Source: Ectocarpus siliculosus
Taxonomy: Eukaryota > Sar > Phaeophyceae > Ectocarpales > Ectocarpaceae
Length of the DNA stretch: 64,000 bases
Assembly (NCBI GenBank): GCA_000310025.1
Contig: FN648720.1
Location: 1-64,000, forward strand
Direction: 5' to 3'
This document shows positions 23,721-59,399 of the stretch, piece by piece. Numbering within the stretch: the stretch's first letter is position 1; every line of letters starts with the position of its first letter. The position numbers and the translations under genes are program-made. The notes under the pieces are model-generated. The model worked only from the letters and a program-made list of their open reading frames with translations. It did not search any database and was not told the DNA's origin.

Positions 23721-26700
23721 ATGCCTTTCGCAAAGGCGAAGAAGAAGGACACCGTCGGATGGGTGGCGGCGGCGACGGAGGTGGAGGGCGGCCAAGACCA
23801 GCAGGCGCCCTTCTCCAGCAACGGCATCAGCGCCGGCGGGGGGAGCCAATTCTCGAGCAACAGCACCAGCGGCGCGGCCGAGCGGACGCGCACGTTGGAC
23901 ATGGACCCCGAGGCCGTCTCGCATGTGAGTTGGTGGGGCAAGGAGGAGGAGAACCACCGTGTAGGCCCCTCGTTGAGTCCTTTGCTCTGGCGTTTGGCAA
24001 CGAGTGTAATCGTCTGCGGCGGTCACAGCAGCTTTGGAAGGGCGCGAAGCTCGTCTTTTCCCCGCAACATGTCGCTGTAGATGGGAGACCTGCTCTTTTA
24101 CTTGAGAATATAATTTTTGTGGGCGTCCTCTGGCTACATACAGGGTTACAACAATAGAGCTGCTGTTTGAAAGTACCGCCATTCGTATCTGTGTTGTCGA
24201 CGTTAGGTTTATGGGGATGCTTGTGAGCACCGGCGGTAACCGGTTGTTGTGTTGCTGATGAACCGCGTCCACACGTCCTCTATGCTGTCAAATCTCTACA
24301 CTCCAGACTACCCGGTACTTCCGCGGCATTGCAAACTCTCCTCCTTCTTGTACAGCAGTAGTGCGTGTGCCATGTGTGCGGCGACTACCATAGGAAATGT
24401 AAAGATTACAAACGGCCCAATGCTGTAAAAGAGAATTGCTGCAACAGCAGTCTAATACTGCTGTTCAAGATCATACTGCAGTTACAGTGTTACAGCAGTA
24501 CCCCCGAATCCTGTGTACCGACATCAAAACGCAGCAGCATTATCGGAGCCATTTGTGAGTGCTCCCGTAATGTAGCCCGCATGTATGCCCCGCGAACAGC
24601 CCACCCGAAAGATGATAAAGCACGAGAATGTCCACCACATGGCTGCAGTTGTAGCAGTCATATAGCTACTGGAAGCCTCGGTTCCTCGGTTCCCTCGACA
24701 TACAACGAGACTCGATGCAGCTCGAAAACGGGAAAACACGCGCGGTGGCGTTGACGCGAACCTGTGGACAGGGGAAACGCGCGGTTGAGAACGTCGGCCG
24801 CAATTCTTTATATCTTGACACGCGCTTGCTCTACTTTAGCGTTTGTCCCTGGTTTATCTCAGTCAGCCACAAAACGTCGGGGAACGAACGCCCCGAGGGT
24901 AGGGAATGGGTCACAGAGTTGGAGTCCATACCACGAAAAAACGGCAGGGATACAGAGTAGGGGCTGCTGCAGATGCACCCACCTGCCGGGCATCATATGT
25001 GTCTTGTCTCTGCCGTGCACACACAGGTCCCGCGAACACCTCTAATAATCGAGCAACACGACCGCTAGCACGCCACCCGTGTTTTGAAATCGACAGCCGA
25101 ACACAATCTGATCAACTCACAAATCGCCGTCGAGTCAACTGTTCGAGAGCGCCGCATAACGGTTGTGGCATCCCCACACCTTTTTCCCAGGCGCAGATGT
25201 TACCAAACCTTAAAAAACTCCATCGTACAATATTATAATACGCCTTTGGGATGAGATACACGTATCGATTGGAACCTGCATCCTCAACCAGCCATATCTT
25301 TATGAAAGCTTTGACGCCCACCCGACAGCGCTCCGCGACCTGCTCGGGTTCAACCACGCATGCTCCATCTTGCCAATCAGCACGCTATTGCCGGTCAGCA
25401 CGCGCTAGCCAATCACCACGCTAAGCCAGTCAGCACGCACTAGCCAATCGCCAAGCAATAGCAAATCAGCCACGGGCACACAAAAACACCTTGTCCGCCC
25501 TACATGCTCAACTCAATCTTGTTACCGCGGTCATCAGGTTTGGATCCCCGACCGACAAGACGTGTGGCGCCTGGCGAGGCTGGGGAGGACGACGAAGGAC
25601 TTCGCCAGCGTGACCATCCCGGGCATCCAGGACGAGCCGTTCGACGTCCCCCGCGAGCACACGAGGGCGTGGGACCCTTCGCATTCGCTCTACCTCGAGG
25701 TCAGCCGGAGTTTTGTTGTTGTTCTTTTCATGTGTGCGGCATTTTTTTCTATTATAGTGTCTTACAACGTATGCAGTAGCGTATAGGAGAACGGGTGGAC
25801 TCATTCAAGTGTCGTGTACGACCGTCCCGCCGCCATGGATTACCATGCCGGTAGAATCGCCGCTGCTGCTGCCGCCGCCGGTAGCTCGCAGTGTTTTGTA
25901 TGACGCCCATGCTGCTGTTAGGAATAGACTCTCACTAAAGGAGACTGTATTCGGCGATGGGCGCGACCGATTTCTTTTTTGCACCGTGTGTAGAGACGTA
26001 CTTCTGTGGTTGTAAATTTAGATGCGTACGGGTCCGCGTTATGTTGCTGTGTCTGGAGGAATACCTTGCAGTCGGAACCTGACTGAGGGTGTGGGTGATT
26101 GCGGCGCGTTGACAATCATGATCATTCGCGATCGCAACCGCTGGTGCTGCTCCAAACCTCAGACTCCTGTCGTTATTGTTATTGTGGTGGGTGTTTTTTT
26201 TTCGCATCTGCTCGCGATCACGCCGTGCCGTCTCGATGTAGTCAAAGCAATGTCGGTGGAAGGCATCGCATGTTTGCAACTCGCGTGCTGCTCGCCGAAG
26301 TCATGGGCGTGTTCTTGGCCCTTCCCGGCCGGCAGAAATCGCCTGCGCTATGCATACACACATATTGTAGGCCCGCTCACAATGTCACTAATTACCTCAC
26401 GGACATGGGATACCATCCTCGTTTTCATGTCCACCATTCGAAGGGTTGCGATGCCCTCAAACGGAGCAGTGATGTGTCGCCCTCTGTGGGGTTCGGCAGA
26501 GCGTGTAGTGGAAACCTCTAGCGCCTGCCTCTGTGCTGTTGGCTTCGCAGTGTCATCTTTTCGAGGGGGGCGTCAGATATCATACGCCGGCCCAATTCCT
26601 AAGGACCCTACTCCACAGCAGGAAAACTAGTGCCGAAAATGGCAATGTTGGAACCGACTGGCCGACATGTTTCCGAAATTCGTCCTCTTCCTCGTGGAGT

Positions 26701-29700
26701 AATCGTGCGTTGAACATTGGTCCAGAGGGTGTGATATCTGTGTCACCAGTGGTAGTCCCGTACTGTTCGTAGTGTCGTTTCTTTTTGCTTTTGTCGGGCA
26801 GGATGCGATGAAACTTGGTAGCCTTCACGGCACTAAGGTTTCTCTGAAGCGCTCTTCTTACCACGATGTTATTTCCATCTCGTGTACATCTTGCGGCCAA
26901 CTCAGAAGCTTCGGCCCCACAAACGTCTACCATGCTCTTCTCACACCGCCGTACAAACATGTTCTTCTTCTCTCCTGCACAGGATGCGGCCAAGCTCAAC
27001 AGCCTCCACGAGGCCGCTCTGCTGAGCCTCCTCCACACTCGCTTCTGCAACGACGACATCTACACGTACACGGGGGACGTGCTCATCTCCGTCAACCCGT
27101 ACAAGACCATCCCTCTGCTGTACTCGATGCCCCACGACAACTCCGACGCCATCAAGCGCAGGTGCGGTCGGTGGTTGACATGGTATGCTCTACACCCTGT
27201 ACTCTCGTTTTTTGTTTCTTGCGTGAGTTAGATTTAGGCGCAGCCAGATGATGCCGAACATACCCTCCCGTGTGTTGTGTAGCGCTATCCCTGCCTCCTC
27301 GCCCCCACCCCCCCATCTGGGACAAGTGCAGCCGAATGGGTGACATCGACCTTTAAGCTGTCCTCCCCGATGACCGGGTGTACTTGTACTGCCCACCCTT
27401 TGAGTACGGGCGAATTGTTGCCATCCAGTGGATATAGTTTCGACGCTTCGACTGCCGGCAGCAACCATCGCCCTCCTCTTCGCACTATCGCAACCTTTGA
27501 ACGCTCCCCACCCATGTTCCTCCGAGTTTATAACCTCTGGTAGTCACGTTTTTGATTGGTAAATCGGGCAGGGTCACCGCCGGCGTGGGGAGGCTGTCTG
27601 AGATCGAGAGACTCTGCGCCAACGGCGGCGGCGACGGCGGCGGTACTGAAGACGGGTCCGAAGACAGCGACTGCGACGACGGATCGCAGCACCAGCGCGG
27701 GAGCTACGACACGCGAGGGAGCGATATGGGCGGGGTCTGGGGGGCGGGCGGCGGCGGCAACCATTCGTCCTTTCGAGACCCCCGCGGGAGCGGGGGCGGG
27801 GCTAGCGTGACGTTTAGCGAGGGCGGCGGCGGGTTCCGCCCCGCCGGCGGTGGCGGCGGCGGCGGCGGCGGCGGGCGTGGCGGGGGGCACCCTGGGGAGA
27901 GCAAGAGCGATTCGGTAGGGTTTTGTCGTTATTTTGGTGCAGTGTGTCTGGGTATGGTCGCATTCTGTGTCGGTCGGTATCCTGTGTCTCTGTCCATTTG
28001 TCACTTGAGGTAGTGATCATGGTCACCGTCAGAACAATCTTGGGGCAGATCGGGTCACGGAAGATTGCATTCTTGCGGGCACTTTCCGTGGACGCGACCA
28101 GAGTACTTCTGTTGGGGGAGAGCCTGCACATGTTTGGGAGGGGGGGCTACGTTGAACCCCAAAATACTTTCATCGCGTTAGATACCACATCCGCCGGAGC
28201 AAATCTACAGCTCTTTTTGTCCACGACGAAAAAGATGCCGAATGGTGCGTTTCGGCATGCTGTCGACGAGACGGGTGCAAAGTCGCGAAATCCGGCGCCG
28301 TTACTGTTTGTGCTGCAGAGTGAGTAATCGGGCTCTTCAATCGTGCTCTTCAGAAACGTTCGACATTTTTCTTGGCCTTGCAGCCTTTTCTGTGTCCACC
28401 GCATGAGGGGATGATAAACTAAACGTCCGCTGCGTTCCCTTATTGGCACGTCTGAAGGTGCTGGACCACCCCCACGTGTACGCGGTGGCCGACAAAGCGC
28501 ACCGTTTCATGACGAACCCTACCGCGGGGAGGCTGTCCGGCGGCGTCGCGGGAGCGAGGAAGCGGGACCAGAGCATCATCATCACGGGAGAGAGCGGCGC
28601 CGGGAAGACGGAGGCCGCCAAGTAAGCTTAAGCTATAGTAGGATTTTGCTGCTTTTTTGGCCTAATGATTTGCACTCTGAATGACCGGCTGGGAATGTGT
28701 TGGAGGCGATGGGAAGGGGGTTCCGGGTGGTCGTTCGTGCTGTATTTTTTCTCACGACCATGGACGTTGGCCTTCCATGTCTTCGGCAAAGGCCGGGACG
28801 GATCACACGACGGACTTTCGCCGGTTAGGGTCTTACGTCTTTCATGTGGGAAAGTGGCAAGAGATGGCGGGTGGGAGGGAGGGGGTCATGCAACAGGAAT
28901 TTTTGGGGGAGGTTGTCTCGCGCAGGGGTAGCAGACGGTCCCCAGACGGCCACGAAGTATATTTGTTGGGTGGTTTTGTCTCTCATGCTCTGCTTCAACC
29001 GTTTCGCGTATCACCCCCCGCTCGCGCACGCTGCCGATTGGGAACGACAGCCCGGGATTTCATCGCATCGAGTGGTGATGACCATCCGACAACAGCCCGT
29101 CAATCCGTCCATCTGCTTATCTGCTTCTTTCGAACGGCACGTCGTGACAGTGCCGGTCATGTCGTTCGCGAACGTATTCACCAACACCCCAGCCTGCACC
29201 GCTCTTTTTACACCCCCGTGCCTTTTTCTCGCGCCCCTGGCTCTCCTTTTCTCTGTTGTTGTCGCGTTTCCAAAAATAACACACACACGCAATCAAAGGT
29301 ACGTGATGAAGTACCTTATCGCCGCATCCAAGGCCGTCACCGCCGAAGCCGAGAACGGCGACCCCGCGGGCGGCAGCAGCAAGAAGGCGGGGGAGGGGGG
29401 GTCGTCGCGGGCGGCGCTGGCTGCTGCGGCGGCCGCCGCGGACACGGCGAGCGACATGGAGAGGCGGCTGCTGGAGTCCACGGTTGTGTTGGAGGCCTTC
29501 GGTAACGCAAAGACGGTTCGCAACGACAACTCCTCTCGATTCGGTGCGCAGCAGCAGCAGCAGCAGTAGCAGCAGGACAGCCACATGAATGCAGCCACTG
29601 CGGGTGTTCTAGTTTTCCACGTACCGTATAGTTTGCTTGTTTTGGTCGCCGTTGGAAGACTTTCATGTGTTTTTTTTTTTTTTTATAGCACCGTCATTCA

Positions 29701-32700
29701 ACCGAAACTCCCCACTGGCCTTGTGGCGTCCTGCACAATGTACTGTACGTCGCCGGTGCCACGTTCGTCGCTGGTGCTTGTGGCGCCGGCGACCCCGAAA
29801 AATCGTCAAGCTACCAACCACCCGTTGTGTCGCGAGTTTGAACCTGTGGGTTGCGGCTCCTCGCCTGACGTTGGCCTGTAGAGCCCTGCGTCTAGTTCCG
29901 TTGTGTTATGCTCACAGGTGAGTACGTACGTAAAGCTAAGTGCCTGGAAGATTGTTCCGTTCTCGTGTTCTCTCAAGCAACGCCTAGGGTAAGTGCGCCA
30001 ATTCTTGTTTCCGTTGCCGCGCTACCTCCTCCTCTCAGGCAAGTACATCAAGCTGCAGTACGGCGCGGACTGGAAGCTGGGCGGTGCGCGGACGCTGCCC
30101 TTCCTGCTTGAGAAGAGCCGCCTGGTGCACCAGGAGCACAACGAGAGGAACTACCACGTCTTCTACCAGCTGTGCAAGGGGGTGAGACCTTTGTCGGAGA
30201 CCGTTCCGTCCTTTCCTTGTTGTTAGATGAAGAAGAGTTTCGTGGTTGCGGAGGTTGTGGTGGATGTCTGCTTCGAGACTGAGGCTGAACGCTGCCCGGT
30301 GCTTTTCCAGGAGTATCATGCCTGCTTTTCGAATATCGTCGCGCGCAACAAGATGTGTTGCGACGCACGCCTACTGCTGTATTGCAGCTGTCACTCCGCC
30401 GTGTGTCACCTGGTGATGCATGGCAACCGCGTTCGTTCGCAGACGTGCTGTACTCTGTTCGGTACTCCGGTTGGATCTGTAGCCGTCATAGGGGTTGTAC
30501 TCGTCTCGTGGGGTACTCTTTATGGGCTTGTTGCAATAGGTTCACTCTGTGGCGACCGTACATACCAACAATTGGTGGGTGTGAACGCTCTTATGTCAAG
30601 CGGGTTCTCGCTGTTTTTTGGTCTTGTGTATGCGTGCGATGTCCGAGATGCCGGTGACGTTGTACCTTGTCTGGGACAAGGTGTGTGGGTACCGGGTACA
30701 TACGATACAAGACAACCCAACAGGTGGTCACATATTTTTCTTTAGCGAAGGCGTTAGATACCGCTGGGGTGTGACTTCTTCAATCGTCCACGGTTCTCAA
30801 AACTTCCGCACCATGCGCGTGACTTCCTCTTGTTGTAACGTCTGTGCTTGTGCCCGTTCGTTGTTTGCGTTTCTCCCCATGCGATCGTGATGATGATCGA
30901 AAAGGTGCCGGACGAGCTTCGCCAGAGCCTGAGCGTTGCCAATGCCCCGGAGTTCGAGATGCTTCGGAAGGGAGGCGTGTTCATGCAGAGCGATGAGGTG
31001 GGGGAGGGTGATCCGAGCGTCTTCTCTCACCACTAGTTGTATTCTCTCTTTCTACATGTTTTGCTCGAGATTTTCCCCCCAAGGGGAGCGTTTTCGTGCG
31101 GAACGTTAAGTTTCTCGCACCCTCTACTACATACTTCTGCCCGTACCGTGCTATTGATGGTCCCCCAGCGTGGCTGGTGGTGCTGCATGCTTGTATGCTG
31201 TTTCTAAGCAATCACCCTCTTCTTGCGACATGGCCTGTTGGGGTGCCCTACTCTAGTGTCTGATGCTCGAATCGAATCGATTCTGCCTTTGAGCTCATTC
31301 TTCCAAGCGTCGTCTTCTTTACGAAGTGATCCGGGCGGGGCGTCTGGCGTGAGCACGATTGTGGTGATCCATGCCACCCACGATACCCCCACTATCGCAA
31401 TTCTAATCTATTCACGACTTTCCAGGTGGACGATGCCAAAGAATTTCACGACCTGGCTTCAGCTACAAGTATGACCCCATGCCAGTCGCGCCCCCCCCCC
31501 TCAACGGCTTTTTATTGTAAATCCCATTTAGTACGTTTAAGGTGGACGTTGCCGCGCGGAGTTCCACCCCCTGGCCTCTGCTATGACCTCACGCTGCCCC
31601 CTCCACGCCGCTTAATTGCCAATCCCGTTTTTACGCTTCAGGTGGATGATGCCGAGGAGTTCCACTGCCTGGCCTCCGCGCTGTCCACCCTGGGAGTGAC
31701 CTCGGAAGAACAGGAGGGGCTCTGGCGGCTCCTCGCGGCCTTGCTGCACCTGGGAAACATTATTTTCTGGGAGACCGACGGCGACGGCGGTGACGGCGGC
31801 GACAATGATGGAGGGGACGAGGGTGGGTCGGGGCTTCGTCTGGAGAGTCCCCTGCTGGCGCTGGAGGACGTGGCGAGCATGGCCGGGCTGCCCGCAGACC
31901 GCCTCGTGTCCTCCATGCGCAAGAAGGTCGCGATGACGGGGAGGGGGAGCTTCCTGGAGATCCCGCTGAACCCTACCCAGGCCAGGGACAACCGCAACGG
32001 CCTGGTGAAGCACGTCTACGGGCAGGTGAGATCACAAGGGGCGGTGGGCGTGCGCGGGAGGGGTGCGTGTGCCTGTGTTCGGACGAATCAGCCGGGGCGA
32101 ATCGGGTGGTCGATGGACTCAGATAGATGTAGATCTTGGTGCGCTCGCATGATATGTAGGAATGTTTCTCGCGTTCGTGTTTTGTGTATGTTGTGTGTTT
32201 ACTTACGTGTATGGTGTGTTGGTTTGTTTCGGCTGCACAAGTTGGCAGGCGAGTATTAGTATGAGTATTAATATTAGTTTTAGTATTAGCATGCCTACAC
32301 TCTTTGTGTCGTGTGGCGGTCGATTCAACGCTGTAGCGTCGCGAGAGCCAAATCAAGCTTTTGAGAAATGGCTGTCGAGCGGTATTTCCTCGAAGTGATA
32401 ATTTCAGGTGTTTCGAAGTGTATTATTGTTTTGAACACCCAGCTGCTGCATGTTTCCCGCCCCCTCCCCCCTCTCTCCCCATGTTCACACAACTTTTGCC
32501 ACCTACCGTTGGTGCTGTCTGTGGTGGGGGTGAAGGTTTTCAACTGGCTCGTGGGCAAGATCAACGAGGCGCACAGGTCTGGAGGCGGCGCTGACATGGC
32601 GGACACGGTAGCTTTCGTGGGCATCCTCGATATCTTCGGTAAGAGGTTGGACTTTTCCTTTAGTTTATGTACTTGTTCGGTTGTTCGATTTTTTTTTATT

Positions 32701-35700
32701 ATTATGACAATCGTGCTGCAAATGTGGATGGTTTGCCCGAACAACGGTTTGGTGCGCCAGGCTACGTACATCAGCTGTATGGTGAGAACGAGCTAAATAC
32801 TTCCATGGCAACGCGACATGGAAAGAGGATCCCAGGGTATCCCTCTCTCTCTGTGTACCAATAGCCAATATTTGCAACAGCCACGTCGTTAAGTTTTGAT
32901 CAATCCTGTCGGTCCCTTTCTCACATGACCAGCTACTCCTTTTCAACTTTTTTTTTGCGTGCGAGGAGTACCTCGTGCAAAATATCGAGCCTCGGGGCAC
33001 GCTGGATATCTCCGCCTGTTGCATTTCGGCTCCTGAATACAACACCTGTGCAAGTCGTCGCCATTCCGGAGTTTTGTTCCATTCTTGGTTGTCCTGCGAT
33101 TGCTGTATACGTACTTCAACAACGACAGGGTTCGAGATCATGGTCCGCAACAGCTTCGAGCAGCTGTGCATCAACTTCGCGAACGAGGTACTGCAGCAGC
33201 AGTTCAACAGCCATGTCTTCGTCCTCGAGCAGGAGGAGTACGAGAAGGAAGGGTACGTCCTCGTCCCAAAAGGGTCCCGTCTTAGTACTCGCCCTGAGTA
33301 GTGCTCGTGCCGTTTCCAGTCTACGTGTACGTTGTCTCATCAGGTACAGGAGAGGCGGCAGCAGCAGCAGTTATCTAAGCTTTCTTCTCTTGATCACCGC
33401 TTCGAGAATGGCCGGGCAAACCGGGACGCGTTCGTTGTAGGCCCTGCGACTCGTTCGTCTCCTACCCACCGACCCGCTCCGCGGGCGTGACCCACTACGA
33501 CGATGGAGTTTCTGTTCCATGAATGCCTACCGTCTGTTATGGGCGTTGTCTCTAGTTGGACAGACTCCCCTTCATCGGTGATGTCCTCCGCACACCGTCC
33601 GCGGAGCACCAATCGTTCACTCACGCCTCCATTCAAGCTGGACTGACTGGAACACGACCGAGACAGGCCTGTTACATGGGTATCCGTCTGCTTGAAATGC
33701 TTCCGCGTGTACGGACAAGTCTGGCTGCGGAATTGAAGATTCATTTTCTCGTCCCATCCCTCCGCCGCTTGTCGTCCTCGCCTTTTGCGTGTTTACTTCC
33801 ATTCCTGTGCGCCTCATGCGCCGCTGGTGATGCGCGGTTTAATATTTCTCTCTGTAAGGTTGGACTGGACGATGATCGAGTTCCAGGACAATCAGCCGGT
33901 GATCGACCTCGTCTCTAAGAAGCCCCGCGGCCTCCTCATCCAGCTCGAGGAGCAGGGGCTGCTTGGACGTAGGGCCAACAACAAGGCCCTCTTGCAGGTA
34001 TTTGAAGTAACTTAGGGTTTCGGCGGAAGTTGGCTGTTATACCATCGAGCTGATGTCTTTTTTGTTCACAACAAACCGGTTTTCGGTGGAGTCTGACCTT
34101 CTTTTTGGAGGGGTTTGTGGAGCAACTTGTTTTGTTAGCATCCCCGGATTCGTTTGGATGGTTTGGATGTTTGGATAGTGAGCGCCCTAGAGTCGCTAGA
34201 TGGATTGGGCAAGACGGGGTTGAACAGGACTAACGCGTGCGGAAGGTGTAAGCTGTTGGAGTGTTTTCTCTCGTCTGGAGTGCCACGATGACAGCGGCTC
34301 CTGCCCTCGCCTTGTAGCTAGTTGGTTTGTCGTGCCTGGAACAATACGCACGCCGCACGAATCCCGCTCTGCCTCCCGCACCTGGGTGTACCTGAATCAC
34401 GGGGTCCGCCTGTCGTCCAGATCGAGTTGGTTGGGGTACGACTTTGGTGGGGGGCAGCCTCCCGTCCCCCGGGGCATGTCGGGAACCCCCCCCCACCCGA
34501 CAACTTGTGATCCGCCTTTCGGTCCCTCGACCCTTGCCGACACGCAACCTTGGAATTCTTTTGATACGAATCTTTCGTCGCCTCCGACTCCATTTCTCGC
34601 GCGGTGCTCTATACCTCAACCCTCTCCTGTTGACCTCAATGCATTAGATTCGGATGCCTCCTCCCTACAATGTCCCTTTAGTCGAGTGCTCTTCCGTGTC
34701 GCGAACCTGTCTTTTTTTTTTTTTTGTCATTCGTCCGTGCTTGTCGCAGCTGTACCACAACACGCACCTGACCAAGAGCGCGTGCTACTCCAAGCCTCGC
34801 TTCGACTCGACCGAGTTCATCGTGCTGCACTTCGCGGGAGAGGTATGTATGTTTGCCATTGCATTGCTGTTATTGATGCTGGTTGTGATTGTGTGTGTGT
34901 TGCTGGGTTCGTTGCTGTTCTTGCTTGCGGTAGTTCTGGGTGCCTTCACAACGAGCATACTCCTCTGACGAAATCTTAAGAGAAAGCTGGTGTTCTTCGG
35001 GGGTTGAGCTACAATGTACGGCCAATATTTACCACGTGAGTAATCACTCCGTTCTGCTTTCATTCATGTCAATCGCTTGTTTCTCTCGCCTCTTATGCTT
35101 TTGCTGCTCAAGGGTATCCCTTCGCGGTCGCCCCGCACTGCCCCCCCCCCCCCTCGTGATGCTGATGGTCCCGTGCCGTATCGTTATTTATTTTTTCGTG
35201 TTGACGTAGGTGGTGTACGACATCGAGGGTTTCTTGGAGAAGAACAACGACTCCCTCCACGACAACCTGCTGGACCTGCTGGATACCACGGTCGACCCGT
35301 TCCTCCGCCGCGTGGTGGAGTTCGTCGATCCCGAGGCTGGAAGTGAGTCGATCACACATACCGTGTACCTTCTACCTTGTCCTACGGTAACGACTACCAC
35401 TGTTTAAGACAGATTGTTTGGGAGAAAGTTGGGTTAAAGAGGGTGTTGCCTTGTTCCAACCCTCTCTTGGACCGTGGCCGCAACTGTGTGCTTGCCGGTA
35501 CGTACATGCCATTTGATGTTGTTGAATCGAACCGTGTACTTCCGTTCCATCTTATTCGTTGGGTATAGCCGTGGGTGCTGTTGGTGTTTTCGGATGATGT
35601 CCCCGTGGTACGTACGTCTGCTTGGTCGGCGAGGGTGATGCCGGCGTGACTCGATGTCGAAATAGGCCCGCCCTCCCTTCCAAGGAACGTTGGGAATCGT

Positions 35701-38700: not shown

Positions 38701-41700
38701 CAGGTCTTCCTGAAGGAAAAGGGCCAGGACATGCTCCGCTCGTGCATGCGGAACGTTTACCACCGCAAGGCCGCCCTCATCCAGGCGTGCGTCCGCGCGA
38801 TGCAGGGGTCGATGAAGCTCAAGGAGAAGAAGGCCGCCGCCATCGTCATCCATGCCGCCGCTCGCCGTTTCGTTCTCAGGAAACGCTACAGGAGCGTGCT
38901 GTCAAAGGTGGGTGGCGGGCAGAGGGGCCATTTCTTGCTCACCTGCGGCAAAGGATGGGATTCCAGGAGCGGGAGGTTTTGTTTTTTCTTGACGGAACTA
39001 GGCTGTGGCTGTGAATGGCTTAGAGAGTCTGGAGGCGTGAACTGTGGTTGGGAGTTGGGAGTTGTAGGCTGTTGCGGTGTTTGGTTCTGAGAGTCGGGCG
39101 ACGTCTAGCGCGGGGGTTGTGGTCGGGTGGAGGTGACGCCGGAAGGCGTGGTTGTTCCTCTGCCTCGATGCCATCACTACCTTAAGCTACATTTTGCTAT
39201 GCGCTTGATATTGGTGTTGGTTGCCCCGCCGCAGATGTTGCTGCTGAAGTCGTGTGTCTCGTCTCGTACTCGCTTGACTTGCTAATTCTTTGCTTCGCTT
39301 AACGCCCCGCCGCAGGTGTTGCTACTGCAGCGCTGGTACCGAAGCCGGATGATCCGGCATAAGTACAAGGGCTGCATCGCCTCGGCCGTTCTTATCCAGA
39401 AGCGGGTCCGCGGCATGCAGGCCCGGGAGTTCCGCCTGCTCCAAGAGGTTGCCGCGATCACCATCCAGAGGTGTGTAATCGCCGGTGTACGCTACAGCAG
39501 CCGTGGCGAGGATGTTTATCTTGGTTTTAGTAGGCGGTGGGGTTGGGGATAGGCCCTCTCTCTCTTTCATCGAATAAAAATATTTTCCTCTCGAAGGCGG
39601 TCAATACGAGAGGAGAGAAGGGAGGGGTGTGGCGTGGTTGCTGTTGTCGGAGTTTGTTGTTGTTGTTGTAGGAATTGTCGGAGGAACGGCAGCTGCGGGA
39701 GTGGTGACTACTAGACAATAGCATCACGTCGCGGTTTTCTGCACAAAACATTGGTCGAGATGCATTCCGCTCGCGCGGGCGAGCAGTGATCCGCTCAAGG
39801 AGAAACCTTTTTTTGTCACTGTTGATGTGAACGTCCCATGAGACCACTTACCGTATCCCAAACGGAAGATGCGAACCTTAAACGGAACCATGCGAACGCC
39901 CAAACCAGCGACGCTCGAGCCTCCTGTTAAGGTGTCCGGATTGCATTTGTCATCATCGCGCTCAACCTACTCACCCTTCCCGCGCTTGCTTTTGATCGGC
40001 TAAACAGGCACGCCCGCGGCATGGAGGGGAGAAGGTATGCCGGCCTGATGCTGATGGAGCTGTGGATGGAGGAGGAAGAGAACAAGAGGAAGGCCGAGGA
40101 GTTCAGGATAAGGAGGCAAGTTTTGTCACGTCATTGGGGTGAGGTAGTGAGTGGATGAGCGTATTGGGGCAGCCTAATCGTAAACATTTGGCCCCAAGTT
40201 GATGAAGGTACGACAGCAAAACTGATATCAACAACACCAGCGTCTAGCCGGGTCGCCCCGGTGTATCCCCGAGACCTTGTCGAGGTCAGGTCAGGGGTTC
40301 GAATCCCGGCGTAAGCGAGTTTTCTTGCAAAGTTCGTTTTTCTCTCGCTTCCGCTTCTGCTCTGGTAGTGGATAGCGCTAGTTCGTGTGTACACAGAGGG
40401 AAGAGAGTGCTGAACTCTTCTCCATTAAAATTCGAAGGCAAAGTACCGCAGGAGGGGAGGGTCGAGAGGGGCTCTTCTGTGTGACCACGGGTTGGAGTAA
40501 ACGGCACTGGTGTTGTGAGCGCTGATTTGAAGTAAAGACAAAGAAAAAGAAGAAAGAAGAAGAAAAAGCCGCACCCACTTGCGGTGGCCAACAAAAAATA
40601 GACCAAGACGTTGCTGGTGGTGCTATGTTGAGTTCCTACACTTTTCTCCGGTTGTCCTCTCCCTTTAGTTACTTCATCCCGCCATTCTTCTACCTCACGT
40701 CGGTACCCCCCCCCCACTGTCCAACCTTCTCTCTGCTACCCCCCCCAATCCATTTCACCTCTCTCTCTCTCTCTCTCTCTCTGTTGTATGGTTGTCCCCC
40801 TACCAGGGCGGCGGCCATAATCCGCTCCTGGGTGCGGCGGATGGTGCAGAAGTACGGCGTCAAGGCGCAAAGGGTGGCGGCCGCCCGGATCCAGCGGGCT
40901 TGGCTTCGCCGCGCTCGCAACCTCTGGCTGGAGGAGAGGGTGGGACGTGTCTTCGCCATCGCTCGGTCTGGAGATGTGGACGGGATGATGCGCGAGCTTC
41001 GGCACAACCCGGACGTGCTGTTCATGCGCGACAGGTGAGAAAGGGGGCGGGGTGAAAATGGGACGGAAGGGGGTGATAATGTGACGGGGGCGGGATATAA
41101 CGGGCGCAGGGTGATACGGGTGGTTGTCGGCAACGGACCGTGAGTGAAGGAATGAGCGACCTAAACGCCTTGGGTGTTTTCTGTAGGGTGTACACCTTGT
41201 ATGAGTGCCGTGTGTGTTGTTGTTGTTGTTGTTGTTGTGTGTGTTCTGTTGTCTTAAGTGTCACGCCCATGTACAGCCATTACCCCGAAGACGTCGAGCA
41301 CGCCTCCTACCTTCAGACCTTCACGGCGTTCCGCTTCCCACTCCGCCTCGTAATCGTATGCACGACACACACACACACACACACACACCATTTTTTCGAC
41401 GTCCCTCCGCCGTCCTTACCCTCTCCGCAATTTGTTCATGTTTCTGTCCAATAATATTTTGTTTACCTCATCCCCCTCCCCCGCGGGCAGGCACGACCGT
41501 TTCAAGACGCTGCTGCACCTCGCCGCGACCAGCGGCAGCACCTCCCTCCTGTCTCTGCTCGACCCCCTCCCCGAAGACGTCCTCGTTCTTGACAGCGACG
41601 GCTGCACCCCCCTGCACCACGCCGCCGCGTCTAGCAAGTACGACGTCGTCAAGTTCCTCGCCTCCAGAGCCAACGGGAGGGTGAGTCACGGTATGAGAAT

Positions 41701-44700
41701 AACAAGAGTTTGGTCCAAGGATGTTACAATATATATGTCGAAGGGGTGGTCTAGGTAAGGCGTGTCGTTGCCACGGTGCGGATGTATTTGTTTCCGGCAA
41801 CGCTGTTGAGGATGGGCAGAGGGTTGTTGGGCTACGCCCATTCGCTCTGCTTTTGTCTTTCGTTTTTTCGTCGACCTCTGCTGTTGGTTTGCTTTGAGGT
41901 GCGTGTTGCTTGCTCCCTGGAACTAGCTGCTGCTGCTGCGTGAGATGACGGGGTGGGCGTTGGGGTGTGTGGACGGAGACAGGGAGGCGTGGCTGTGCCG
42001 TGTGAATGTACCGTACGTCTTGTTTTTTTTTGTTGTTGTGATGTTTTTGAGTCTGTTGGCGCACTTTTTTGGTTCCCTGGTACTGCAGGTGCACGCTCCG
42101 GCGCGTATCAAGACGGACTCGGTGGACGCCTTCATGCAGGAGACGCGCGCCACGAAGCGCATTAGCATGCGAATCATCCAGGTTGGTTGTTTTCCACATG
42201 AAGCTCCGACGGCCGTATGACGTTTGTGGTTTTTACGTCTTGATGGCTCGTGTTCGCGAGACTCACTCGCCTTCCCCGTATCTCTAGTGTTGGGCGGTGG
42301 ACGAGCAGGATTTACGTTGTGTGTACTTGCGTTCTCTCCTCATGGCCCCATTACCTACCTTGTCTACCTTCTTTTATTGTTTCGCAAGAGACAGGGGGTG
42401 CCCGATTCGCGCCGTGTTGTCGCGACGGTTCGGAGCGCCGCGTCACCCGCGGTGGAAAGCAGCGACACGCTCCATCTTCATACGCATACTCCCCGTACCT
42501 GACTTTTCTGTTTTCTCTTGTGGTCGACTCCCTCGTGTGTGTGTGTGTATGCCTTTAGTAATAGCATCGACCGCGCTAACCGGCTGAATAATGAAATGAT
42601 TTCAGTATCAGTGCGGTTGAAAACGCAAAACACTTCTGAATTCCATTAACTGGGACCCCGTGTGTGTGTGTGTGACTTCGGGGGGGGGGGACGGGCGTGC
42701 GCTCACTCTGCAGGAGGCGCGCCAGAGGGCGGGGGTGACCACCGTGAGGACCGGGGGTGTGCTGGGGACGCTGGCGGGAGGCGCGGCGGCCGTTCGCGGC
42801 CTGGCTTCGAAGGCCATGGACACCTCTATGCCTGCCATGACGACCAGCAAGCCGGTGTTCCAGGTGGGCTTCTACTTAGCGTCTGCTGCAGCTGTTGTTG
42901 TGCTTGGGCGGGGGGAAGGGGGGGGTCGTCTTTGTTGTCGGCGTTTTGTTCTGCTAGGTGCTGTCGATAAAAGGTGGTGGTTCCTTGTTGTGAGCTGCTT
43001 GGTGTTGTTGATAAGTTGGTGTACCGTTTTTATGAATTGCTTGGTAACTTGTTTTGTGTTGTCGTGGTGTAGATTTTTAAGCTCATACTGCTGTGCAGTA
43101 GGTATTTTTTTGGGGCTCAAAAAGGTGATTGCGTGTTTTCCGTGCCTGCCGCTGGTGCGCCGATGCTTGCAGCTGCTTGACATTCTAGTGCTCACATCGA
43201 CTACGTTGCCTTATAATACCCCACTGCCTTTTGGGTTTGTTTGCAGAGCTGTCGGTGTTTTTTTCGCGGCGAAACGGCGTGGAGTGTTATTGTTTGTGTT
43301 GCCGTGGGTAATACAGGAAAACAGGTACACCTATTTTCGCACGATCTGTAGACTGGAAGCCGAGTGCCCGACCGCCTTAAGTTTCACTCGATTTTGTCTA
43401 TATACTCACTTGCTCCCTCCAACCGCTCCGCCGCCTCCGGGGTCTTGCGACTAACGCTGCACTGTCTTTCTTTGTCTTGATGATTGATGATTGCTGGTTA
43501 CTTGGTTGCGACACCAAAGGGTTTCCTGATGAAGAGGCGGGAGACGGGCAACTGGCAGAGGCGGTGGTGTGTTTTAACGGAGAGAGACATGGAATACTAC
43601 CACTCCCGTCAGGTATGATACGGTACATTTTAGTCCTTTTCTGTTTCCGTCTGGTTTCTAGAGTTGTTGGCTCCTTTGGGGTTGCTGGTAGAATAGCGTG
43701 CCTGTGCCCGGGGAAGGTGTCCGCGTCAGTTGCACCGCTACGGATACTGGGAGGTACTGAGCAGAAAACGGAGCGGATTTTGTGAAGTCAACAACGACAG
43801 CAACAATTTGCCACGGAAAGTGTCCCGTCTGTTGGAGCGGTACGGAGGCCTGAAGGTGCTGAGCTGAGATCAGAACGTGTTTTTTTAGTGGAGAACAGCC
43901 ACGTATTGTAGTACACATGCAACCTTTTTTCCGTTTTCAGTGGCAAGGAGACTCGCGTCTCTTCATTGGCCAGCCGGTTTATGTAGCGCGTTCGATGCTT
44001 TTTCTAAAAACACGCCGCACACACACACACACACACCCGACCAGGACCACGTGAAGGGCAAGCGGCCGGCCAAGAGCGTGTCCCTCGCTTCCGCCCTCCT
44101 CAAGAAGAGCGGCCCGCCGCCGGCCCTGCCCCCTCGGCCGGGCGCAGAGCCGAGCGGCGGCGGCGGCGGGATTGGTGTCGGTTCGCTCGGCCTCGGCCCC
44201 ACCAGCATCAGCGGCGGCTTCGGCAGCAACGGCAGCAGCGGGACCGGGGGCTTCGGCAGCAACGGCAGCAGCGGTGGGCCTAGGGCGGCGTTTCCCCCTG
44301 TGTCGCCCCGTGTGGGGCCGGGAGCGGCGGTTGGGGCCAAGGGGAGGGGAAAGGGGAAGTCGGCGCCTGACCTGGCTCACTGCTTCGAGCTGCACTCGGG
44401 GAAGCTGCTGGGGGACAAGCGCAACCGTGAGGGGCGTCTGTACTTCAAGGTGGGGAGGTGGTGTTTTTTTGTTGTTGTGTGGTGTTTGGCGGTCGCTCTC
44501 TTGGCATTGTTGTTGTCGTTGCATGCTGGTGGCGGTAGCTCGTCACTTGACTTGAGTTGGAAAACCCCTAGTCCCTTGGTAGAATTCAAGGAACATACAT
44601 GGTACACCACAGACGCGTGCCTTCCAAGAATGAAATCAGCCTACAGCAGTATTCCTGCGGAAATGGGTGTTTTCTCGTGTTTTCCGTTCAGGTGCTCTGC

Positions 44701-47700
44701 CTTTGAGTGGGGTACCTACAGTGCTAGTGCTGTCGTCATGGTGTGGTCCTATATTTGTAGGCCGATTGGCTTCAATGATTGCTCTCTTCGATCAGCGTAT
44801 TAGTTCTTTTTCTAGAGAATCCAAAGGATGTTCGTGGTTGGTGTGCCATACGCGTATTAGTAGGTGGAGATGTTTTTTTTTGCGTGACGGACGCACTGCA
44901 CTGTGTGACTTGTGTTACCAATGCGGTCATTTCTTTTATCTTCTTTTCTTTTTCTTGTCGTGACTGCTCGTTGTGCCGCTGTGCCACTCGTCAGGCGTTG
45001 AGCGAGGAGGAGCTGTACTCGTGGATGGTTCCTCTCAGGGTGCTGGTCGGCAGCCACAACTTGGTCCGGACCGGGGCCGCGGGTTCGATGTGCTACGTCG
45101 ACGTCGCCCGGAGGGTGGAGCTCGTCAACATGCGCAACAGGTCGGTCTACTGGATGCCGTTTGTCGTCCGACTGCCTCTCTTGCGGCGAGACTGCCAGAG
45201 AGTATAAACGGTTCTTTGATGAAACCGTTGTGTATTTGATGATGGCTGGCGTTACGTAGGGGGTGGTGTTTTTCGGGAGGGTTTTTCGTTGGTTTGTGGT
45301 CATGATGGCGGTGTCTGGACTCCCGCTGTGCGGTGTATCCAGTGTGTAAACATGCATGCCTCCATGGGTTCAGTTTGTCGTATCAGCTGTTTTTTTTCAT
45401 TGAAAGGCGCCTGTGCTCGGCACTGCTGCGCCATGGTGTTGGAGTTGATGCTACGGAGATGCTTGCTTTCGTCCCCCTGTCTCGCACATTAAGGCGCCGT
45501 GACGAGGGTTTCAATGCCACCGCCGTCTATGATGCATCTGTTCTGCCGCTGAACCAGAACATATTCCTCGGCTCTTTTTTTTTCCTTTCCGAACATTCGG
45601 TGCTTGACTGCAAAAAACCTGCGGTGCGGTGGTTTTCAGGGCGGGCGAGACGCCCCTGCACTACTCGGCGAAGGGCGAGGGCAAGGCGGAGAGGGACGCC
45701 ATTGGCAGGGTGCAGATCGCCACTTGGCTGGTGAGTCGGACCCCGGTCGCCCGACCATGAACCCATGTTTGTTCTGTGGTTCGGCGGCGTTGGGATTGCG
45801 GTTATACTTAAAATACGAAGTATGTGCTCTAGGTGTTTCTTTCCATCCGCACGCGCTCGATCGGCCTCCAGCTCAGCAGTGGGAGCGAGGGGTGTTTTGG
45901 GTCGACGTATCGTGTGACTGAAGCATTGCTTCGGTTGGGTTGCGTCGCAACTTTGGGGTGGTGCGACCGGGGTGTGAGTTGATCGTCGCGTGGGATGAGT
46001 CGCTTGTCGATACCGGTCGATCTACGACCAGACATGGCCGCAACCCTCGTTCTACTTTTCGTTCATTTCATATGTTTGGTGCTCCATCCTCCACCCCCGG
46101 CGCAAGACGTGACGCATGTCTCCCTTTGTTCATTCTACAGTAGTCACTCTCTGCTGCCATCAATACGTATATGGTAGTAACAAAGAGATGAAAGCATTCC
46201 CGGAATTGAATAGGCACACACGCACATGAATAATCCACTGATGTACATGCTGTGAAGCAACAATGTATTGATGGCGTCAATTGTGAAACGGAATGCAACA
46301 ATAAACAATTGCAGGTCGAGAACGGTTCGGAGGTGAACGCGGCAGACAAGGGCGGCTCGACCGCCCTCCACGTGGCCGTCCGTCGTGGACACGTCCCCCT
46401 CGCGGCTGCCCTAGTGAGGCGAGGCGGAGACCTTACCGTGGTGGACAGGCACGGCCGTAGCCCCCTGGAGCTTGTGAATCGCGACCAGGACGTGGAGGAC
46501 ATCGCCGTGGGGCACTTCAAGGCCGCGGAGAGGAGCCCGATGCTGGTGAGAGGGGGGGGGGGGTACTTTGTCCTGTTTTGCATGCCTTAGCAGCTACCAT
46601 ATTGTACGATTCGTAGTAATAGGGGGGGGGGGGAGGCTATTGCGTTTTTGTGCGCGTCGGGCGCACTCGTGCTGGCGAAGGGGTGTTTTTTTATGGGGTA
46701 CTGTACTCTCGTGTTTTGCGATGTCTTGGCTGCTATGTTAGACTATTCGGCTTTCTGTGGGGTGCGCTTTTCTTTGCGCGTTGGACGCAGCCATTCCATT
46801 TCTGCATGATGTGTACCCTGGGCAGCGAGGAACTCTTCGGGATTTCATCCACCGGGAGGCTGATGGGCGGGGCGGGGATCTAAATTTGGCGAGAGCGGTT
46901 TGAAAATCGTGTCGGTGGGGGGAGAGGGCGTGCCGCGTCAAAGATCCAGATGTTGTCGGTTCAAGGAAGGGTGTTTACGACGGGGAGAGGAAGCGCGTGG
47001 TTTTTGACGCTGTATGTACAACGCCGGCGTGACAGCTTAGCTTCGCCTCCAATTTCGCTTTGCAGTTGTTGGCACCCCCCGTTCGGCGACGTGTCGGTGA
47101 CTGCTGTGTCAAGGGAGGACGTCTGCTACTCTCTGAGGCGGACTGTCGTGTTTTTGTGTGTTGTGTTGACCCACTGCTGTCCCTACGAAGGCGGCCCGCC
47201 GCCCTCGAAGTGTGTCGCCGCTGCGGTACCCCCTCCGGGTGGTTTGCTTCTTGTCGTCGTGTCGTCATGTCGTGATGCGTCCACCCCTGCTGGGCGGCTG
47301 CTGTATCTTTGCCGCTACCTCCATTCGAGTTTTTTGCTCTCACCCGCTTGTTCTTGCTGCTGCCGCTGAGAAAGTTATAATATAGAAACCGTTGCTCAAT
47401 ATGTTTTTTTTTTTTTTTCGTGCTCCTGTTGTCCATCTTTCTGTTCCGGTTTGTTCCAAAGGCCCCTCCCGTGAAGCTGTCGTCGCTCACGTACCTGTCT
47501 TTCCACCTGGAGAGGCTGGTGATGCACAGCACGGCCGACCTCCAGTCGCCCTTCATCACTGTCTCCGTGCACGACTCGAGGGGACGCAGGGTGAGAGATG
47601 GAGCTGGTACTGCTGCTGCTGTACTGCCGTCGTTTTAGCTATATATAATAGCTGTCCATCACTGCTGTTGCGGAAGGGAAGTAGAGTGGAGTGAAGTACG

Positions 47701-49882
47701 GCGGCATCCTACCGTAAGCCCTTCCTTGTCGCCGCCCCTCCCCCTCTTTCCTTTCGCCGCCGCCTCCAACAACCCACAATTTCGCACCAACCAACACCGA
47801 CTACCAGAAACCACAAACACCGAAAGATCAATCGAAATTCCAACACCCACCCACCCGTCCAACATGAAACGGCAAAGATGGCGAAGAAAACACAAACAAA
47901 CCATCTCTGTATGTTTTTTTGAGCCCAATCGATACCAATCAACCCAATTCAACGCGGTGGTGGTTTCGCCAGGTGGAGGCCGCCCAGGACGCGAGCGCGC
48001 CGGTGGTCCGCCGCCCGAGCTACCTGTGGTGGTCCACCTCCTACCACATGCAGAACCCGGTCGAGAACCTCGAGCCCGGCACGCGGCTGGTGTTCACCGT
48101 GAAGGACCAGAGCACGGAGGTGGTGTCGACCGGGCGGCGGGGGGTCGCGGGGAGCGGGGACGTGCGGGAGCTGGGGTGGGGCATGATCCACGTGAACAAG
48201 AGCACCATGAGCTCCCAGGTGGGGGCGTGTTTTGGGTTGCTGGGGGAGGGGGAGGGGGGGGGGGCAAGTGGACGGGGATGGCGAGGGGGAGGGGCGACTC
48301 ACGTAAATTGTGAACGTGTCTTTGGTGTCCATTTGATGATGCCGTCTTCGAGAGACCGGGCATACATTTTTTTATTGCTTTTTGCGGGTGTGTGCGGTTA
48401 GCGGATGGTGTGCGTCGCGTCAGCGAGGTTGACCGTCAACTGAACCAAAATAGTGCACCGTGGACAAGTCATCATCATCGTATCTTTGACGCACGTTGTT
48501 GGGAGGCGGATCTGAGCGACGGTGTGCTGCTACGAGGCTATTTGGAATGAACGGATCATGTCGCGGAAGACGTGGCTCTATTGTTACTGCTGACTGGGAG
48601 GGAGCGAGGGTCTTTCTCTGCCGTGCTTTGTGCAGGGGGTTTATCGATAGTGGAGTGTTATACACTCCTTCACGTAGCAGATATCTTCTTGGCCTTGTCG
48701 GCATCAAGTTGCAAGATCACAAGTACCGGCCGAAGATCGACCGCCTGGTGCGGTGCTCGTGACGATTTTGCTCCCGCCACGTCGTATCCCTATTGAAATC
48801 CCGCACCCACCACGGTCTTACATATTCCAGTATTGCTTACTTTGCGTCGCTGCTGTTTGCTTTTCGGTGCTCATGAAAAACACAAGAAACACGCGTGCAC
48901 AAAGTGACCGTCTTTGAGATGGTTGTTCTTGGTCTTTTTCGAGCGTCATCTCCTTCCCCCCCGCCCTCGATGTTCGCAGGAGGTGAGCATGGAGATGTAC
49001 CAAGCCCCGGTGGATCTGTCGCAGAAGGCTCTCGTTCCCATCGATCTCTTCTTATCGGGTGAGTGAAAACACTTTGGTACATGGGAGAGATCTACACAGC
49101 TTGTTCGTAAATAATTGCATAGGGCGTCCCCGTTCATGCGTTTGGAGGCCCTCGTTTGAGGTAAGCTAGAGGTTAACTACGCGACGCTTGGTGTATAGAA
49201 TACATACTCTGCTGTTTCGGGAACAATGTCGTGCGCAGTTTTCTACCGTGGTGGTTCGTCCCCCGTTGCTGCAGCGGTTGAGCTATTGTGTGGGCTTCAC
49301 GGCGGAATCATTGGATGCCCTGGGCTGGGAATTTCACGGGCCGGTTGTACGTGGTTGTTGTCGGAGTGAGCGAGAGCGAAAGACACAGGGATACGATTCC
49401 GTGCACCTTTGTCGCCGCGTACGCCGGTGAAGTCACGTTGCCTCCGAGGCTGTAGTTGCAACTGCAGGCCTCGTCGAGGCGTGGCATGTGTTGATGTGTT
49501 GATCTCCTGCGGTTTTCTCGCCTTCGCCCTGCCAACGCCTTCTCGACCATCTCCATCCCTCTGTTTGGTGCTTTTCGAGCCGGTAACACTGTCACTCTCC
49601 CCCGACCTCCTATATTTGCATGGGGCTTGCCTCATTCGTGGTCCAGTAGTTGGTGTTATCCTGGCGATACTTGGTTCACGAAGTTGCCGCTGGCCAAAGA
49701 AGCTCTTGTATTCCATATCCCCTACCGGCACACTTGCTTCCGCACGTCCGTTGTCCTTACTTCGTCTATTTTCGGGCGATTCCTCTGCCTACGCGTCGCA
49801 CTGTCATGTATATTCCGCAGGCTACGTTACCCTGACAACCGCCCAAGTCGACATGGACGCCGCAGCAGCACGGCAGTCGTGA
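23721..49882 (+). CDS. Unconventional myosin: motor - IQ - ankyrin - PH - ankyrin - C2-like (34 exons, about 1,972 aa)
   Basis: Exons: 23721-23924, 25538-25699, 26983-27161, 27572-27914, 28458-28621, 29299-29543, 30039-30181, 30905-30997, 31642-32025, 32536-32638, 33129-33252, 33859-33997, 34750-34842, 35210-35342, 36108-36439, 36780-36964, 37280-37346, 37831-38046, 38704-38907, 39316-39470, 40008-40115, 40807-41034, 41491-41680, 42089-42181, 42714-42863, 43520-43612, 44045-44449, 44995-45140, 45640-45730, 46315-46545, 47462-47590, 47973-48218, 48980-49058, 49821-49882. The sum is 5,919 nt, in phase throughout, ending in TGA. Myosins move along actin using ATP; here P-loop, switch I, switch II and IQ motifs are all intact. 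One intron (after 40115) is GC-AG. The tail modules suggest binding to phosphoinositide membranes and partner proteins; cargo is unknown. The start is the first ATG of an exon ending in a good donor. Class assignment needs a tree. Confidence 0.93.
23925..25537 (+). other. Myosin intron 1, longest intron of the gene
   Basis: The intron is 1,613 bp with donor GTGAGT and acceptor CATCAG. It includes a small perfect hairpin (AACAGCAGT, five-base loop, ACTGCTGTT; 24443-24465). At 25,370-25,475 there is a cluster of degenerate CCAATCA/CCAGTCA-type short repeats with CACGC spacers. Long first introns often hold enhancers; that role is inferred. Confidence 0.6.
25538..38046 (+). other. Myosin motor domain block (exons 2-18)
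   Basis: An SH3-like start ([16 protein letters not shown], about residue 69) leads into [18 protein letters not shown]. The P-loop GESGAGKT is at about 340-347, switch [15 protein letters not shown] at 419-432, and switch II DIFGFE at 670-675, split by the intron after 32638. The relay region, the actin-binding block [14 protein letters not shown] (about 985-998) and a converter (about 1032-1103) follow. Three inserts stand out: a Gly-rich insert of about 115 aa on its own exon (27572-27914) before the P-loop, a long Ala/Gly loop 1 (29,330-29,460), and a Ser/Pro/Gly-rich loop-2 insert of about 110 aa on its own exon (36108-36439). The catalytic residues visible are intact. Confidence 0.92.
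31433..31641 (+). repeat. Decayed tandem copies of the exon-9 start in a myosin intron
   Basis: The real exon starts at 31642 with [13 protein letters not shown]. Two imperfect copies of its first about 45 bp lie upstream: at about 31433 ([13 protein letters not shown], preceded by a good TTTCCAG acceptor) and at about 31542. Copies 1 and 2 also share the intron sequence that follows (AATCCC...TTTA or CTTC). This is a tandem duplication across an intron-exon boundary. Confidence 0.75.
38136..38290. repeat. Two-copy tandem duplication in a myosin intron
   Basis: Two diverged units of about 75 bp share TTGGGGAGAGT, GGGAGGCGTGGG and a T/G-rich end. They lie between exons 38046 and 38704 and have no coding role. 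Confidence 0.6.
39224..39335. repeat. Duplicated 3' splice-site segment upstream of myosin exon 20
   Basis: GCCCCGCCGCAGATGTTGCT near 39,224 closely matches GCCCCGCCGCAGGTGTTGCT near 39,304, the true acceptor and exon start. Two usable-looking acceptors thus lie about 80 bp apart. Confidence 0.6.
40250..40330 (+). repeat. tRNA-like sequence, possible SINE fragment in a myosin intron
   Basis: GGTTCGAATCC (about 40304-40314) matches the RNA polymerase III B box exactly. A weak A-box-like TAGCCGGGTCGCCCCGG lies about 50 bp upstream. The T stem pairs poorly and I could not fold a full cloverleaf, so it is not called a tRNA gene. A tRNA-derived SINE remnant in the intron between exons 21 and 22 is the best reading. 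Confidence 0.35.
41491..49882 (+). other. Myosin tail: ankyrin repeats, split PH domain, ankyrin repeats, C2-like end (exons 23-34)
   Basis: The first ankyrin block is at about residues 1336-1398 ([30 protein letters not shown]). A PH domain starts with [19 protein letters not shown] (exon 43520-43612) and ends with [19 protein letters not shown] (across 44449/44995). Between them is a Gly/Ser-rich insert in exon 44045-44449. The second ankyrin block is at about 1694-1790 ([35 protein letters not shown]). The end (about 1802-1972) has a C2-like pattern: [37 protein letters not shown]. The last residues (ARQS) are not a canonical PDZ ligand. Confidence 0.82.
46546..46810. repeat. Tandem duplication inside the intron after myosin exon 30
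   Basis: A unit of about 135 bp is present twice in diverged form. Shared blocks are GGGGTACT, GTTTTGC, GCTGCTA/GCAGCTA, ACTATTCGG/ACGATTCG and a GTGCGCGTCGGGCGCA-like segment. Poly-G tracts head the first unit. Confidence 0.5.
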
Positions 49883-52800: not shown

Positions 52801-54163
52801 CGCTTCAGGCTGACCCATGGTCCACCCCTGGGTATGGTAATTGGCAATCTCAACATCGTTGAATCAGTCATCTCGATCGCCGCACCATGTCACAGTCTCT
52901 CTCTAGCTTCGGTTGCTTCCTGTACATTCTGGACGTTCTTCGTGGCAGCTGGGAACTCTATTCGACTGGGACCATGGCGGTGAACACAATATTTCCTGTA
53001 CTGAGTCCATCACGTACACGGGCAGTTCTGTTTACACGTTTTTGAAGTGAATGGAAATTCGGTCGACTTTGCCCAATGTCCTTACCCATGGCGTTCTAAG
53101 TCGATTGGATTTGTTTATAAAAATTCATGCCGTTCAATTCCCTCCACGGTGTTTGTATCTTGACGCCTCGGGATGTATCGTGTTTGGATGTCAGCCCCGC
53201 AACAGCGTCATCCAAGCGCCAACGGAATACCTCCCTACCAGAAACAATGGGCGGTGGGACGGCGGCAGCACACACGGCGGTGAGTAATGTGGAAGGCTCA
53301 TTCCTCTCGCGTTTTAATCGCGAATATGTCATGATTATGTGGTTGACCAGTGCATGCGTTGCTCGTGCTGGTTTGCCGCGTCAGTCGCTCCTGCTTTCCG
53401 ACCAGCTGGTGGGTGGTGCCGGTTCGGGATGATTGCTCCTGCGCACCTTATCAGTAGTGCACAGCTGGCGGAATCGAGCACCGGCGAAAGTGCTAAATAT
53501 CTAGACGCTGAGAGGAAATCGTCATCGCAACTCTAGCAAGTCTACACTCGTGTAGGTTGAGCTGCTTCCGACTATCCGTACAACTGCTCTGGAATTATGG
53601 GGTTTTGAGGGTGTCTGAGGAAGGGTAGCGGGAATGCTCGCCGCCGACTTTGCGACGCGCCTTTTCACTGATGGTAGCCGAGAAGCCACACAGGTGTGTT
53701 ACAAGTGGAGTTGAATATGGGAAGCAAGGTCTCCCGAACTCATCATACCGTCTTTCTAATATACGATGAAAGGTGGAAACCTTCGGTTAGAAACCAAAAG
53801 GTCGGAGGTAGTGTGAGAGGCGAACGACTGCGCAGCACACTAAGAGTAGCTGACGACGAAGATGTTCAGTCAATGGCTTTGTCGATGGCGCTCCGAGTGA
53901 GAGGCAACCAACTAATTTCACCTCGAAACTTCCTTCCATGAGGTTGAAAAATTAGAGCATGGACGTGTCGAAAAGCAGAGGGCACATGGTATTGGTGGTG
54001 GAATATCGATGGCTGCTTCTACCCCGGCAACAAGCACAGAGTACATTTTGAACAATCTAGAATGGAGGTAAGGAGGTCTTTAGGCGGTGTCGTGTGAGTT
54101 CATTGAATGGTCTCAGACTTCTCCCCGATGTCGCTCTCCTCGTTGCTGAGATGCTGACCTGTT
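49883..54163. other. Intergenic region without a recognised gene
   Basis: Only short ORFs with no family motif are present. A segment at about 52216-52262, readable as AAGVHAALNNPSMN, has a related copy at about 57440-57488, so decayed repeat or gene copies exist here. Runs of G and T are common. Nothing else can be supported. Confidence 0.45.
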
Positions 54164-59254: not shown

Positions 59255-59399
59255 ACGAATATATACAATACATGGTCCTTTTTTATCAGCTGTTCCTGGG
59301 ATAACATAGTCCCCAGTTTCAACACCACAGACCGCTGAGGGCGGCAGTGCACTAACACGATATCGAGTGGAGCCTAGCTAGGCCAGGTGTTGGTACAGC

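Follow-up and report, generated by a model that had tools for sequence, protein, structure and literature searches.

What kind of motor does a myosin gene encode when its tail carries ankyrin repeats, a PH domain, more ankyrin repeats and a C2-type end? The question is raised by a plus-strand gene in a 64,000-nucleotide stretch of Ectocarpus siliculosus DNA (contig FN648720.1, positions 1 to 64,000; hereafter the window), for which an initial annotation had described an arrangement not recognized from the standard myosin classes. A place outside the known classes is not supported: the arrangement equals the published description of class XXXI (PMC3942036; PMC2375034; PMC5583752). At a probability of about 0.92, the gene is a class XXXI (class-31) myosin and belongs to a set of three or more related genes in a genome that is probably brown-algal. 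It looks like an added member of a class whose ankyrin-PH-ankyrin-C2 tail is already published, not a new kind of motor.

As described by Sebe-Pedros et al. (2014), class XXXI myosins have a variable number of IQ motifs, a PH domain between two ankyrin blocks, and a C-terminal Aida_C2 domain (PMC3942036); an earlier description by Odronitz and Kollmar (2007) gives members with 17 IQ motifs (PMC2375034). The class is reported from heterokonts and haptophytes (PMC3942036; PMC2375034; PMC5583752), and Kollmar and Muhlhausen (2017), whose data took in Ectocarpus and Saccharina, count class-31 as one of six classes that most stramenopiles share (PMC5583752). The window gene has IQ motifs after the motor, a PH domain flanked by ankyrin blocks and a C-terminal Aida_C2, and it is because this tail order matches the published description part for part that the class assignment is made. 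The features, all predicted from the DNA and its translation, are as follows.

23721 to 49066, plus strand: the whole class XXXI-type myosin coding region, 33 exons, 5,901 nucleotides, 1,966 amino acids, from ATG at 23721 to TGA at 49064-49066.
25538 to 25699, plus strand: exon 2, an N-terminal segment alignable to the corresponding region of myosin Va (PDB 4zlk) and to VWLPDKAAVW of a plus-strand paralog on another contig, C3.
26983 to 38715, plus strand: motor domain (Pfam Myosin_head), exons 3-18 plus the opening residues of exon 19.
27572 to 27914, plus strand: exon 4, an uncertain glycine-rich motor insert of 115 amino acids before HPHVYAVAD, from the exon-chain search (codon score 0.17).
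36108 to 36439, plus strand: exon 15, an uncertain proline-, serine- and glycine-rich insert in the loop 2 region, set by hand and in frame (codon score -0.02).
38704 to 41034, plus strand: IQ neck of about seven IQ-like motifs, exons 19-22, from Pfam IQ, a regular expression and inspection by eye.
40925 to 41680, plus strand: first ankyrin block (Pfam Ank_2, 1.7e-8; Ank_3, 1.2e-7).
43520 to 43612, plus strand: exon 26, the N-terminal half of the PH domain, which raises the PH score and is matched by an exon of a minus-strand paralog on C3.
44045 to 45051, plus strand: remainder of the PH domain with an insert (Pfam).
45139 to 46545, plus strand: second ankyrin block (Pfam Ank, 7.2e-12; Ank_5, 1.2e-11).
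47462 to 49066, plus strand: C-terminal Aida_C2 domain, exons 31-33 (Pfam PF14186; PDB 2qzq).

The motor signatures mentioned in the initial annotation are present and canonical: GESGAGKT (P-loop) at 28587, NDNSSRF (switch I) at 29522, and DIFGFE (switch II), which is split by an intron and joins 32629 to 33129. Myosin_head is matched over profile positions 2-679 of 679 (E 2.3e-195, for a protein that carries a 23-nucleotide exon 15 and lacks exon 4, the PH exon and the two final residues). A complete Myosin_head together with the three nucleotide-site motifs places the protein in the myosin superfamily. The exon 2 segment drew no Pfam match; by comparison with other myosins we take it to be SH3-like. 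A short plus-strand stretch at about 26799-26828 is similar to the beginning of exon 3 and may be the decayed remnant, within the intron, of a partial exon duplication.

Pfam also bears out the tail order that had been read from the letters, IQ - ankyrin - PH - ankyrin - C2, and with it the initial view of a stramenopile-type myosin with two ankyrin blocks, a PH domain and a C2-type end. IQ (PF00612) is matched over three stretches (E 8e-8); a regular expression finds five motifs, spaced at exactly 23 residues, and the last two were recognized by eye. The PH domain emerges once exon 26 is added, its E-value moving from 0.13 to 2.5e-13, and the match to the C3 minus exon stands at 44% over 50 residues. 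An 84-residue glycine-, proline- and serine-rich insert (exon 27) splits this domain and has no counterpart in the rough models of both paralogs. The end first called C2-like is a C2-type domain, specifically Aida_C2 (E 4.3e-14, with 52.8 bits where the cut-off is 25); it is the last domain before the stop, and it also matches the solved AIDA structure (PDB 2qzq, E 1.8e-5). Myosin_head, IQ, Ank, PH and Aida_C2 all lie above curated Pfam cut-offs.

How far can the exon structure underlying these domains be trusted? The plus strand was translated in three frames, and 28 clear coding peptides (1,211 codons), picked by eye, show a strong bias to codons ending in G or C. An exon-chain search combining codon and splice-site scores returned one gene, starting at ATG 23721, and a rerun with the positional anchors removed reproduced 32 of the 33 exons of the first model identically; its codon table was still trained on the hand-picked peptides, so the rerun is not independent. 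The sole change was at the end of exon 21, where a GT donor (exon end 40100, GT at 40101) was chosen versus a GC donor (40115), the latter being the one exception among 32 otherwise GT-AG introns in the 33-exon model. In 29 of the 33 exons codon bias is clear, at 0.33 to 0.71 per codon; in the other four, exons 4 (0.17), 15 (-0.02), 26 (0.03) and 33 (0.19), it is weak or absent. PH and Aida_C2 homology backs exons 26 and 33.

Three hand edits were made. The 23-nucleotide exon 15 of the first model was replaced by the in-frame 36108-36439, whose start was placed after the first AGs downstream of 35919 (an acceptor at 36105 fits too). The exon at 43520-43612 was added, since the first model had no N-terminal PH exon. 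A poor extra exon was dropped and the last one extended to TGA 49064-49066: exon 33, from 48980, runs directly into this stop (...PIDLFLSGE*), and no exon ending at 49882 is therefore needed. The gene end originally placed at 49882 is rejected, as the in-frame stop comes first, and of the initial model of 34 exons and 5,919 nucleotides the in-frame, splice-compatible chain stands while the count becomes 33 exons and 5,901 nucleotides. Should exons 4 or 15 be wrong, the coding region is shorter. The idea that exon 4 is forced by the reading frame was rejected: the nearest exon 3 donors leave phase 1 or 2 and exon 5 enters in phase 0, but phase-0 donors at 27199, 27214 and 27223 (gtgagt), with an acceptor at 28408, allow in-frame joins that skip it. 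Extra residues occur at this position in the model of the C3 plus paralog too, which as backing for the exon is suggestive only.

Is the gene alone in its genome? An exon-by-exon search of the genome for the Aida_C2 family gave no match anywhere, the window included, an outcome probably due to the shortness of individual exons. A search of the same genome with the C2 protein piece found the window and two loci on contig C3, and a tail query matched the PH exon in one of those loci. Compared with 70 kilobases (kb) of C3, the whole protein reveals two paralogs, colinear with the window myosin and arranged head to head, with about 14 kb between their modelled starts.

About 632.7 to 604 kb of C3, minus strand: C3 minus paralog, rough model from protein comparison.
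646.7 to about 668 kb of C3, plus strand: C3 plus paralog, rough model from protein comparison.

In Pfam, the C3 plus copy has Myosin_head in its motor and a tail of ankyrin, PH, ankyrin and Aida_C2 (the scan took a motor piece lacking exons 4 and 8 and ending after exon 15, with exons 16-23 and 34 outside it). The C3 minus copy has IQ, PH, ankyrin and Aida_C2 (exons 17-31 of its model, rough like that of its neighbor), and its motor comes from protein comparison and Myosin_head exon matches. In the motor, C3 plus is 47.6% (382/803) and C3 minus 49.6% (338/682) identical to the window gene; in the tail the respective values are 36.0% (173/481) and 37.4% (140/374).

Across the genome, Myosin_head exon matches number at least 96, counted as 24 clusters, a lower bound given that 65 of 144 candidates were scored. 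A tree built on 106 motor columns from the surroundings of the P-loop and switch I unites the window gene with the C3 pair in one clade, set against 17 other myosins from this genome (ultrafast bootstrap, UFBoot, 97; FastTree 0.972). The tree took in 20 of the 24 clusters; C7:1.84M, C8:3.83M, C70 and C62, with one exon match each, lie outside it. The C3 plus row was drawn from the modelled protein, its last residue before gaps coming from a doubtful small exon; an earlier version, in which that row held intron-derived columns around switch I, was rejected. No close relative turned up in viral contigs that were scanned with the C2 tail and with a portion of the motor. Going by these predicted genes, the Ectocarpus genome has at least three diverged class XXXI-type myosin genes. 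Domain E-values, the recovery of 32 of 33 exons and the two colinear C3 paralogs together mark the window gene as real beyond chance.

Several points nonetheless weigh against the class XXXI assignment. The gene model is a sequence-based prediction; exons 4 and 15, low-complexity inserts in the motor, have no homology support, and exons 15, 26 and 33 were placed by hand. The class label rests on the predicted tail architecture and the published distribution. The neck has about 7 IQ motifs versus 17 in the members described in 2007, the 2014 description allowing a variable number. Neither comparison, nor Pfam on the model, nor a look at the neck-to-PH stretch (612.3-619.2 kb) showed a first ankyrin block in the C3 minus paralog, where it may be lost, diverged or missed. 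Low-complexity loop growth (the PH insert and possible motor inserts) does not change the class.

Among the alternatives, the best surviving one, itself improbable, is that the gene belongs to an undescribed myosin class with a convergent tail. In its favor, the motors of the two paralogs are just 48-50% identical to that of the window gene; against it, the tail elements, Aida_C2 included, stand in the order stated for class XXXI (PMC3942036), and most stramenopiles are reported to have class-31 (PMC5583752).

Slightly less probable again is that the gene model fuses two adjoining genes, one for a myosin and the other for an ankyrin-PH-ankyrin-C2 protein. The join is a prediction, and in exon 22, which also carries the first ankyrin residues, the IQ motifs were recognized by eye only. 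Yet that exon (40807-41034) takes in both the last of the IQ-like motifs and the point where the first ankyrin match begins, and the introns from exon 18 on, at 382-916 nucleotides, may be set beside the 315-765 nucleotides inside the motor from exon 3 on. Motor and tail elements also occur in the same order at two other loci, and the combined architecture is published for class XXXI in the description cited above (PMC3942036). A class XXXI pseudogene or copy in decay, to which the low-complexity inserts, the weak codon bias of four exons and some weak acceptors (gaag, aaag) might point, is very improbable given a frame that can be chained open through the entire motor and tail, clear codon bias in the other 29 exons, intact adenosine triphosphate (ATP)-site motifs and five domain families each above a Pfam cut-off.

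If the window gene is a class XXXI myosin, what might its product do? The intact nucleotide-site motifs suggest an ATP-driven actin motor, with a neck that would bind calmodulin-type light chains. PH and C2 could hold the tail at a membrane, an attachment that is plausible from the presence of these domains, while the ankyrin blocks would bind protein cargo or adaptors; the motor may then move or tension cortical or vesicle membrane along actin. On domain content, we lean modestly toward such a membrane-linked working mode. A further proposal, which we regard as unlikely, is that among the three or more diverged class XXXI myosins the window gene is a regulated variant in which built-in inserts act as a switch on membrane binding or on the motor: the 84 residues in PH, absent from the modelled paralogs, and, if exon 4 is real, the 115 glycine-rich residues in the motor. 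Our estimate for it was lowered a little because exon 4 is not forced by the reading frame.

The importance of the locus is modest: it supplies a gene model and two paralogs for a class for which a literature search on class XXXI names found no functional or experimental study, its hits being the 2014 classification and an unrelated Drosophila paper. In the brown algae, an independently multicellular lineage, membrane work based on actin is a candidate role for class XXXI.

Downstream of the myosin gene lies an EsV-1-7 cysteine-rich repeat gene (54158-55810, plus strand, with further repeats to 56217; PF19114, E 4e-114). Genome-wide, all 150 scored candidates of 880 in a first look matched this family, and none of 14 control genomes gave a match; the family is reported, in the source as consulted, to be expanded in brown algae and patchily present elsewhere (PMC7457493). 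These repeats point to a brown alga as the likely source of the DNA. Upstream, a divergently oriented minus-strand gene runs from about 22797 to 8635 (in a rough model, 21 exons coding for about 1,000 amino acids, mostly coiled-coil-like), and a scan of its first 516 amino acids returned just a weak PDZ match below cut-off (E 0.083). Further on, plus-strand frames at 59382-60434 and 60067-62499 match Retrotran_gag_2 (E 1e-5, 25.5 bits, cut-off 27) and a zinc knuckle (E 0.008, below cut-off), and are possibly copia-type retrotransposon remains.

Where, finally, does this myosin stand among known systems? Its best-scoring solved motor is that of myosin Va (PDB 4zlk, 376 bits, for a query lacking exon 4 and ending before loop 2), with a likeness that includes the N-terminal segment. 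Myosin V also has a multi-IQ neck; its tail is a coiled coil followed by a DIL/globular domain, unlike the ankyrin-PH-ankyrin-C2 tail predicted here. AIDA shares a C2 domain of the same Pfam family (PDB 2qzq, PF14186) and differs in being an animal protein that is not fused to a motor; among the matches listed in a literature search on myosin and Aida, no title concerned an Aida domain of a myosin. Class XXXIV of oomycetes is likewise a stramenopile myosin with ankyrin repeats, although PH and Aida_C2 go unmentioned in the part of its description consulted (PMC2375034). Class XXXI differs from the window gene in IQ number in its 2007 members, and may differ from it in the 84-residue PH insert and the possible motor inserts. 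The two have in common a motor, a variable IQ neck, a PH domain flanked by two ankyrin blocks and a C-terminal Aida_C2.
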